Shown in pieces: positions 37,762 through 40,090 of a stretch of 64,000 bases of DNA. Made by a program: the position numbers and the translations under genes. The notes under the pieces were generated by a model. That model was not told the DNA's origin, made no database searches, and worked only from the letters and a program-made list of their open reading frames with translations. Source of the DNA: Micromonospora echinospora (lineage in GTDB: Bacteria; Actinomycetota; Actinomycetes; Mycobacteriales; Micromonosporaceae); NCBI RefSeq assembly GCF_014203425.1, contig NZ_JACHJC010000001.1, positions 5,978,001-6,042,000 of the forward strand. The letters run 5' to 3'. Position 1 is the first letter of the stretch; each line of letters starts with the position of its first letter.

Positions 37762-38937
37762 ATGCGCGCAGACCGTCGGTACGACCTCGTCCTGTTCGGC
37801 GCCACCGGCTTCACCGGCGGGCTCACCGCCGAGTACCTGGCCCGGCACGCGCCGGAGCGGCTGCGCTGGGCGCTGGCCGGGCGTAACCCGGACAAGCTGG
37901 CCGCGGTGCGGGAGCGGCTCGCCGCGATCGACCCGGCCCTGGCCGAGCTGCCCCTGCTCACCGCCGACGTGACCGACCCGGCGTCGCTGCGGGCGGTGGC
38001 CGAGTGCGCCCGGGTGGTGGCCACCACCGTCGGCCCGTACGTGCACCACGGCGAGCCGCTGGTGGCCGCCTGCGCCGCGGCCGGCACCGACTACCTCGAC
38101 ATCACCGGCGAGCCGGAGTTCGTCGACCGGATGTACGTGCGGCACCACGCCGAGGCGGTACGCACCGGGGCACGCCTGGTGCACGCCTGCGGCTTCGACT
38201 CGATCCCGCACGACCTGGGCGTCTGGTACACGGTCAAGCAACTGCCGGCCGACGGGCCGATCGCCGTGGACGGCTACGTGCGGGCCGGTGGCCGGTTCTC
38301 CGCCGGGACGTACCACTCGGCGCTCACCGCGTTCTCCCGTACCGGTGAGACGAGCCGGGCGGCGCGGGCCCGGCGGGCGATGGAGCCCGGCCCGGACGGG
38401 CGCCGGGTCCGCGCGGTGCCGGGCAAGGTCGGCCGGGTACGCGAGTTCGGCCAGTGGGCGGTGCCGCTGCCCACCATCGACCCGCAGGTGGTCCGCCGGT
38501 CCGCGGCGGCCCGCCCGGAGTACGGGCCGGACTTCCGCTACCGGCACTTTGCGGCCATGAAGCGGCTGCCCACGGTGCTTGTCGCCGGAGTCGGGCTGGC
38601 CGGTGTGATGGGGCTGGTGAAGGTGGCGCCGACGCGGCGCTGGCTGCTCGGGCGGCTCGCCTCCGGGCAGGGGCCGACAGCCGAGCAGCGGGCGAAGTCG
38701 TGGTTCCGGGTGCGGTTCGTGGGCACCGGCGGCGGCCGCCGGGTGGTGACCGAGGTGGCCGGCGGCGACCCGGGATACGACGAGACCGCCAAGATGCTCG
38801 CGGAGTCGGCGCTCTGCCTGGCCTTCGACGACCTGCCGGAGACCGCCGGGCAGGTCACGCCGGCCGCGGCGATGGGTGACGCGCTGCTGGACCGGCTGGT
38901 CCGCGCGGGCATCACGTTCCGCACGCTGCCGGCGTGA
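37762..38937 (+). CDS. Saccharopine dehydrogenase-family protein, trans-acting enoyl reductase-like
   Basis: A 391-residue NAD(P)-binding protein. The Rossmann signature is YDLVLFGATGFTGGLTAEYL at the N terminus, followed by AGRNPDKLAAVRERL and VVATTVGPYVHHGEPLVAAC, which are the pattern of the actinobacterial saccharopine dehydrogenase-like group including Mycobacterium tuberculosis Rv2953, the trans-acting enoyl reductase of phthiocerol and phenolic glycolipid synthesis. It contains a hydrophobic stretch near residues 270-290 (LPTVLVAGVGLAGVMGLVKV). No polyketide synthase is in the window, so the true substrate is unknown. It follows the ADH gene by 31 bases on the same strand. Confidence 0.85.
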   Translation: MRADRRYDLVLFGATGFTGGLTAEYLARHAPERLRWALAGRNPDKLAAVRERLAAIDPALAELPLLTADVTDPASLRAVAECARVVATTVGPYVHHGEPLVAACAAAGTDYLDITGEPEFVDRMYVRHHAEAVRTGARLVHACGFDSIPHDLGVWYTVKQLPADGPIAVDGYVRAGGRFSAGTYHSALTAFSRTGETSRAARARRAMEPGPDGRRVRAVPGKVGRVREFGQWAVPLPTIDPQVVRRSAAARPEYGPDFRYRHFAAMKRLPTVLVAGVGLAGVMGLVKVAPTRRWLLGRLASGQGPTAEQRAKSWFRVRFVGTGGGRRVVTEVAGGDPGYDETAKMLAESALCLAFDDLPETAGQVTPAAAMGDALLDRLVRAGITFRTLPA

Positions 38938-38968
38938 GGTTGACCCTCGACCCGGTCGAGGTCACAGG

Positions 38969-40090
38969 ATGACGGCCGTGGAGAGCGAGCTTCGCAGCAT
39001 CGGCGAACTGGCCCGGGCCAGCGGCTTGACGGTCAGCGCGTTACGGTTCTACGACCGTTCCGGCGTGCTGCCCCCGGCCCGGGTGGACCCGGTGACCGGC
39101 TACCGCTGGTACGCCGAGGAGCAGGTGGCCCCGGCCCGCCTGGTGGCCGGGCTGCGCCGGGTGGGGATGCCGCTGACCGGCATCGCCGAGGCGCTGCGGC
39201 ACCGGCACCGGCCGGCCGAGGTGCACCGCCTGCTGGACGCGCACCTGCGCCGCCTGGAGGACGGCCTGGCCGACGCGCGTCGTGAACTCTCCCGGATCCG
39301 CAGCCTGATCGACCCGGAGGAGACCACTGTGACCACCCGCCTCGTGCTGTCCCGCACCGACCTCGCCGCCGCCGTGGACGCCGTACGCTTCGCCGTCGGC
39401 GCCGACCCCGCGCTGCCGGTCCTGTCCGGCGTGCTGCTGGAGGTCGCCCTCGACGGGGTGCACCTGTTCGCCACCGACCGGTTCCGGCTCGCCGTGGCCC
39501 GGGTCGGCGCCACTGTCGACGGCCCGCCGGTGAGCGTGCTGCTGCCGGTGGCTGCCGTCGACGAGCTGCGGGCGCTGCTGGACGCCGCCGGATCGCTGTC
39601 GGGCCTCGACGGCTCGGACGTTGCCGAGGTCGTCGTCACCCCCGACGGGGTGACTGTCACGGTGGCGGGCCGGCCGCTGACCGCCGTCCCGCTGCCGTAC
39701 GACTTCCCGGACTACCGGCGGCTGCTGCGGGCGCAGCTCGGCGACGCGCCCGCGTACCGGATCCCGTTCGACGGCGCGGCGCTGCGCGCGGCGCTCACCG
39801 CCGACGGCGTCCCCGTCTGCCGCCGGGCGCACGAGGGCGTCGAGCACGAGGTGGTGGCGCTCGGCCTGGACGGCCGCGGCGAGCTGCGCCTGGTCGACCC
39901 GAACGGCACGGACGGCGCGGACGGCGCGGGTGCGCTCCGGGTGGCGGTGAACCGGGAGTACCTGCTGGACGCGCTGGGGTCCGGCGACGGCCAGCTCGTG
40001 CTGGAACTGGACGGCCCGATCACGCCCCTGGCGGTGCGGCGGGCCGACGACGCGGACGCCTTCTCGGTGCTGATGCCGGTACGCCTCTGA
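38969..40090 (+). CDS. MerR regulator fused to a DNA sliding-clamp-like domain
   Basis: A 373-residue fusion. Residues 1-115 are a MerR regulator: HTH RSIGELARASGLTVSALRFY, wing RVDPVTGYRWYAEEQ and a dimerisation helix (VHRLLDAHLRRLEDGLADAR). From about residue 120 the chain resembles DNA polymerase III beta subunit: ALPVLSGVLLEVALDGVHLF then ATDRFRLAVARV, matching the first clamp domain motif PVLSGVL.E..L..ATDRYRLA. It ends in FSVLMPVRL, like the VMPMRL end of DnaN. The clamp part is about 250 residues, shorter than the 370-380 of a full DnaN. Whether it forms a ring cannot be told. Similar fusions occur in actinobacteria, but I know of no function. Confidence 0.88.
   Translation: MTAVESELRSIGELARASGLTVSALRFYDRSGVLPPARVDPVTGYRWYAEEQVAPARLVAGLRRVGMPLTGIAEALRHRHRPAEVHRLLDAHLRRLEDGLADARRELSRIRSLIDPEETTVTTRLVLSRTDLAAAVDAVRFAVGADPALPVLSGVLLEVALDGVHLFATDRFRLAVARVGATVDGPPVSVLLPVAAVDELRALLDAAGSLSGLDGSDVAEVVVTPDGVTVTVAGRPLTAVPLPYDFPDYRRLLRAQLGDAPAYRIPFDGAALRAALTADGVPVCRRAHEGVEHEVVALGLDGRGELRLVDPNGTDGADGAGALRVAVNREYLLDALGSGDGQLVLELDGPITPLAVRRADDADAFSVLMPVRL

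Follow-up and report, generated by a model that had tools for sequence, protein, structure and literature searches.

The window analysed here is a 64,000-nucleotide stretch of the Micromonospora echinospora genome (assembly GCF_014203425.1, contig NZ_JACHJC010000001.1, positions 5,978,001 to 6,042,000). It holds a gene that joins a MerR helix-turn-helix (HTH) domain to part of a DnaN sliding clamp, downstream of a MerR-type promoter. We compared promoters and starts over the best 80 of 554 confirmed named loci of this fusion, which fall into 12 named genera and one metagenome-assembled genome and include 46 Micromonospora loci. The features assigned, in window positions, are as follows.

38940..38945, plus strand: -35 element, TTGACC, in the MerR-type promoter of the fusion gene itself (TTGAC in 80/80 named loci)
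38946..38964, plus strand: 19-base-pair (bp) spacer carrying the dyad CTCGACC-C-GGTCGAG, whose arms are 38946-38952 and 38954-38960; candidate operator of the MerR-clamp protein
38965..38970, plus strand: -10 element CAGGAT, overlapping ATG 38969 (comparison of the 80 loci)
38978..40090, plus strand: MerR-clamp fusion gene, 370 amino acids from GTG (Pfam, TIGR00663, start comparison over the 80 loci)
38996..39199, plus strand: MerR HTH domain (PF13411, residues 10-77 of the 373-residue reading)
39212..39310, plus strand: long helix spanning model residues 79-111, presumably a dimerisation helix (role by analogy with other MerR proteins)
39316..39322, plus strand: internal Shine-Dalgarno (SD) sequence GGAGGAG, 6 nucleotides ahead of the internal start
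39329..39331, plus strand: internal start GTG, residue 118 of 370, for a putative 253-residue clamp-only product (of the 48 genes with this start, 41 have ATG)
39329..40087, plus strand: pseudo-clamp that comprises domains II and III of DnaN and the partner/drug pocket (alignment, model, pocket conservation)
Pocket of the pseudo-clamp (370-residue numbering), among others: T166, R168, F169, R170, L171, P244, R248, L249, N325, Y328, V364, M366, P367, V368, R369

The frame 38969-40090 is open without internal stop, and its translation contains all three motifs (PVLSGVL and the final MPVRL among them) from which a preliminary description of this DNA had proposed a MerR HTH joined to a clamp-like region. 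Both parts proved to be genuine homologues. With the 373-residue reading, Pfam gives MerR_1 (4e-15; PF13411 at 56 bits versus a cut-off of 21.6), DNA_pol3_beta_2 (5e-12) and DNA_pol3_beta (8e-6) above cut-off, and a weak match to clamp domain III, DNA_pol3_beta_3, below it (0.0024). Residues 121-373 align with positions 123-367 of the DnaN model TIGR00663 (2.6e-17), and solved clamps in the PDB match by sequence, the best being 8dj6 (6.5e-13). The TIGR00663 score of 62.8 bits falls short of the equivalog cut-off of 137.65, and the protein is not a three-domain DnaN: both the alignment and a structural model place DnaN domains II and III in the clamp part and leave domain I out, which makes the earlier remark that it is shorter than a full clamp exact. 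The predicted fold is that of a clamp, not the unrelated fold that the preliminary description had named as a risk, and the clamp motifs are conserved among orthologues.

The reading frame proposed earlier stands, with a start that has likely moved. Since ATG 38969 overlaps the -10 hexamer and 75 of the 80 loci have an in-frame ATG or GTG 6-8 nucleotides past it, the likely start is GTG 38978, 7 nucleotides after the hexamer; the product would have 370 amino acids, to which a start at ATG 38969 would add three. With so short a distance between the -10 element and the start codon, the mRNA is probably leaderless.

According to excerpts of PMC11139829, the partner pocket of the clamp consists of 18 residues from domains II and III. 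We examined their conservation in 29 DnaNs, 67 group-A fusions and 9 fusions of the diverged group B. In group A the 18 positions keep 72% identity and 92% similarity, and none of 2000 random draws of 18 positions matched this identity. The 12 pocket positions that are at least 90% conserved in DnaN reach 89% identity and 97% similarity, as against just 31% and 39% for 63 non-pocket positions equally conserved in DnaN. Among the pocket residues, T172 is found in 66/67 sequences, R176, M362 and P363 in 67/67, P242 and N320 in 64/67 and R365 in 60/67; relative to DnaN, subsite I retains 75% identity and 96% similarity and subsite II 65% and 84%. The DnaN ring interface of domain III is not conserved: over 14 positions (272, 273, 298 and 304 of them named in excerpts of PMC11139829), group A shows 5% identity and 13% similarity. 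To judge from this pattern, the pseudo-clamp is a ring-incompetent piece of sliding clamp whose partner/drug pocket is intact. Since the domain III interface has not been conserved, a clamp ring built through a different oligomer, as envisaged earlier, is unlikely. There is good support for the suggestion that the clamp fold serves to bind a ligand: the pocket is selectively conserved and the gene has a MerR-type promoter. In group B, subsite I persists (78% identity, 90% similarity) but subsite II does not (30%, 37%), and the group may therefore sense a different ligand. The clamp pocket binds griselimycin, cyclohexyl-griselimycin and mycoplanecin A (PMC10817943, excerpt).

Upstream of the gene, the 80 loci share TTGAC(C/T), a CTCGACC..GGTCGAG-type dyad in the spacer and a hexamer resembling CAGGAT. 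The spacing TTGACN-19 bp-[CT]ANNNT is present in 75 of them and the strict operator pattern in 69; spacer and dyad both occur at 38940-38970, the one strict site in the window. In MerR activators, the activated dimer distorts the 19-bp spacer, making the promoter usable by RNA polymerase. Searching this genome with the 22-base operator at up to three mismatches gave 14 matches versus 1 in the reversed control, the three best lying at the fusion gene (no mismatches), a YunG-family gene (one) and the dnaA-dnaN gap (two). This arrangement suggests that the fusion controls its own gene through the dyad operator.

A second start is indicated within the gene. In an alignment of 63 group-A genes, the window included, 41 have at the linker/clamp junction an ATG with GGAG, GAGG or AGGA 4-10 nucleotides upstream, or 48 when GTG is counted; the next-best alignment window has 6, or 15 with GTG. 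Just before this start, 13 of 16 arginine codons are AGG, versus 38 of 3114 elsewhere. Raw counts of SD plus start place the junction window first, with 51 of 74 genes (6 of the 80 were dropped when the motif was not found), but 26 and 23 genes score in other windows of 25 codons; since such counts are unspecific alone, the case rests on the aligned ATG count and the AGG bias. The internal start would yield a clamp-only product.

Run on 81 Micromonospora genomes, the strict pattern gave 141 sites, and none in the reversed control: 68 at the fusion gene, 48 before dnaN and 25 elsewhere. The dnaN sites, found in 48 of the 81 genomes, lie on the dnaN strand, 662-688 bp ahead of the gene; in the present genome the site is 690 bases upstream of the dnaN start, in a segment with two exact DnaA-type boxes. 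These positions suggest that in many Micromonospora the fusion controls the gene of the real clamp. The earlier idea that the clamp part ties the regulator to replication thus gains support from an unexpected side, the operator upstream of dnaN. It is very improbable that the dnaN operator belongs to another MerR protein, or that the clamp part is a mere dimerisation or scaffold domain without a ligand. MerR proteins do share promoter layouts, and another MerR fusion of this genome has TTGACC-19 bp-CAGCGT, but its spacer differs, a dyad of the same type recurs at the self-site across the 80 loci (strict in 69/80), and the pocket is selectively conserved.

The 25 remaining Micromonospora sites precede genes for major facilitator superfamily (MFS) exporters (14), tetratricopeptide repeat (TPR)-like proteins (6) and YunG-family proteins (3, one by a 31-residue match); two have no family assigned, one of which precedes a frame only distantly MFS-like. 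Close exporter homologues (E ≤ 1e-60) occur in 6 of 25 chosen genomes, all missed by the strict pattern, with site-like promoters at 4-7 mismatches. Outside Micromonospora, 33 named genomes have 34 strict sites, 28 at the fusion gene and 6 others; of these, 4 precede TPR-like genes, 1 a YunG gene and 1 nothing assigned. The 44 first-round genomes, 24 with the fusion, have the strict pattern in 12, every one a group-A carrier; the sole non-self strict site of that round outside Micromonospora, an unassigned one, is in G208. Group B fusions, at about 32-38% identity, have another operator of the TTGACCTTC..GAAG type, present in 7 of 27 genomes, six times at the fusion gene and once in a genome (G107) without a fusion at E ≤ 1e-25.

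Further sites of interest were seen. The YunG-family gene of this genome (PF24585; L115, G000:C1:3709513) has the operator dyad with one mismatch and a poor -10 element, and the family also stands behind the operator in G333, G373, G312 (weak) and Asanoa (L310). Several Micromonosporaceae encode a small TPR-like protein behind the operator (L260, L261, L264, L266, L267, L270, L311, L312, L314 and L316). L023-L031 represent the diverged group B subfamily, mostly with its own operator type; at L023 a TPR-like sequence (similar by eye) continues in frame behind the MerR-clamp protein.

These targets bear on what the pocket may sense. The regulator might be a homeostat of clamp occupancy, in which clamp-binding motifs of surplus replication and repair partners fill the pocket when free clamp is scarce and dnaN is raised; the preserved partner-peptide pocket and the rank of dnaN as commonest non-self target in Micromonospora (48 sites) would fit. 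We consider this unlikely, since it explains control of dnaN but not the exporter behind 14 of the 25 other sites, and since the fusion is patchily distributed (24 of 296 genomes of the class match at E ≤ 1e-25), has a layout that, as predicted, is autoregulated and dual-start as in TipA, and has none of its strict sites at dnaN in the 33 named genomes outside Micromonospora. Alternatively, the pseudo-clamp might respond to some other hydrophobic ligand, a small molecule or a peptide, that has nothing to do with clamp function, with dnaN control secondary. YunG and TPR targets would agree with this, and we know of no link of either protein to replication. So would the loss of subsite II in group B and, in excerpts of PMC11139829, the acceptance of unrelated small molecules by the clamp pocket. 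But both subsites of group A are closer to DnaN than a freely drifting pocket would need to be, and dnaN carries the site in 48/81 Micromonospora genomes, making this alternative quite unlikely in our judgement.

On the computed fold, pocket conservation, ring-interface loss, operator sites and internal SD with start, we consider it probable, with modest confidence, that the fusion is a one-component MerR activator whose pseudo-clamp is a ligand domain sensing a clamp-pocket ligand and raising its own gene and, depending on the lineage, dnaN and an exporter. More tentatively, and as a possibility in which we place less trust, it would be a target-mimic antibiotic sensor that actinobacteria made from two-thirds of a clamp, both activator and internal-start sponge, raising dnaN from the dnaA-dnaN gap in many Micromonospora, and efflux in some species. 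A clamp-directed antibiotic is suggested as the ligand because both drug subsites are kept, the layout is TipA-like, the distribution in actinomycetes is patchy, and one regulon holds the drug target together with, in some species, an exporter. Binding of the protein to its sites, ligand identity, activation and the sponge role are steps that we infer. The pseudo-clamp would bind a pocket ligand, the likeliest being a natural product that, like griselimycin or mycoplanecin, targets the clamp, and the ligand-bound dimer would make promoters with the 19-bp spacer usable. The regulator's own gene would be raised; in many lineages the clamp-only product from the internal start could soak up ligand, as TipAS does. 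Expression of dnaN, the gene for the true clamp, would likewise rise in many Micromonospora; some species would add an MFS exporter and small proteins of the TPR or YunG kind.

Several observations weigh against this interpretation. The exact dnaN site is absent from 29 of 77 Micromonospora genomes carrying the fusion; 21 of these 29 were read, giving 6 near-sites with 2-6 mismatches (G308, G373, G324, G336, G368 and G310), 11 degenerate sites with a broken -35, 1 shifted site (G332) and 3 genomes with none (G095, G307 and G366). Among the 34 strict sites outside Micromonospora, none is at dnaN. The four fusion-less Micromonospora genomes have no intact dnaN site (three blank, G344 with a broken -35), and the resulting association of site and fusion (Fisher p 0.025) comes from genomes that are phylogenetically non-independent. 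When 30 dnaN upstream regions are aligned, identity is 90% at the site, which stands out from its upstream flank (58-75%) but hardly from the downstream one (84-88%); because the latter is nearly as conserved, we dropped the view of the site as a sharply bounded island. A close exporter homologue (E ≤ 1e-60) was not found in this genome, and fusion-less G344 keeps an MFS gene with a site-like promoter. For group B, which retains subsite I and not II, the operator turned up in 6 of 10 genomes, each time at the fusion and nowhere else. Fifteen of 63 genes, from 14 Micromonospora and Plantactinospora, lack the internal start, and those inspected have neither SD nor start. The mycoplanecin producer is not among the best 120 matches listed in either homologue search, which says little because only those best 120 are listed.

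Among 7997 candidates scored, 2375 proteins match the fusion at E ≤ 1e-3, and all of the best 120 matches listed have MerR domains and PF02767. The fusion is found in 77 of 81 Micromonospora genomes at E ≤ 1e-40. Existing annotation calls it a MerR family transcriptional regulator or a DNA polymerase III subunit beta family protein, and no description of a MerR-clamp protein was recognised in openly licensed literature, judged by titles and the starts of abstracts. Its neighbours here are a saccharopine-dehydrogenase-like gene (by Pfam) ending at 38937 and, downstream, a serS-like gene (judged by eye). Since neighbours change by genus, guilt by association with either was dropped, and no cluster occurred in more than 5 of 13 genus groups (80 loci, top 45 clusters, the fusion and overlapping frames aside; no search for biosynthetic clusters was made). 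Pfam finds just one DnaN, an ordinary one, in this genome, so that a GriR-like second full DnaN was rejected there. Fusion carriers with a second DnaN, possibly a resistance clamp, are G018, G191 and G261 (42-45% identity to this genome's DnaN) and Micromonospora G303, G326 and G328 (61-77%); in G018, G191 and G261, whose fusions belong to group A, the strict pattern gives the self-site only. In Micromonospora parastrephiae (L095) the fusion gene ends early, after 206 codons, possibly as a decaying copy or through a sequencing error. The other MerR fusion of this genome (L003, G000:C1:719628-720020 and surrounding frame) joins an HTH to a PP2C-phosphatase-like domain (by eye), with its own TTGACC-19 bp-CAGCGT promoter, a different spacer sequence and, where the two domains meet, an internal ATG. 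Fusions of MerR to household proteins may form a wider class.

Should our interpretation be true, soil bacteria would meet clamp-directed antibiotics often enough for a dedicated response system to have evolved and spread, the drug's own target would have been recruited as sensor, and a ligand-gated activator would control dnaN from the dnaA-dnaN gap. It would also supply a ready-made reporter promoter as a genetic handle for finding clamp inhibitors, and point to a protection route possibly used by producers and their neighbours.

Among known systems, BmrR and other drug-binding MerR activators are related through the HTH, which resembles solved BmrR-type chains; the logic of the 19-bp spacer is held in common and the effector fold is different. 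The beta-lactam sensors BlaR1 and MecR1 likewise have a sensor domain related to the drug-target family, but they are membrane receptors with a protease, of unrelated fold and pathway. With the DnaN beta sliding clamp, the fusion shares the domain II and III fold and the two-subsite pocket, and differs in lacking domain I, in its unconserved ring interface and in being joined to a DNA-binding regulator. Griselimycin and mycoplanecin producers carry a second DnaN, GriR or MypR, proposed to confer self-resistance (PMC10817943, excerpt). Like these, the fusion is a clamp-derived protein tied by proposal to protection from clamp antibiotics; unlike these DnaN genes inside biosynthetic clusters, it is a regulator and, lacking domain I, not a full-length DnaN. 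TipA, according to excerpts of PMC7762955, uses two start codons to make full-length TipAL and effector-only TipAS, the latter sequestering the drug. The fusion resembles it in having a MerR HTH, a coiled coil and a C-terminal effector domain, and, as predicted from sequence, an operator at its own promoter (TipA itself is autoregulated) and a second start signature (48/63 genes). It differs in that the effector is a pseudo-clamp, dnaN is a likely target in many Micromonospora and both ligand and second product are predictions. As the TipAS domain (PF07739) is absent from its seven Pfam matches at E ≤ 10, the fusion stands outside the TipA class. It would work like TipA without being a member of that class, and is clamp-derived without being a clamp.
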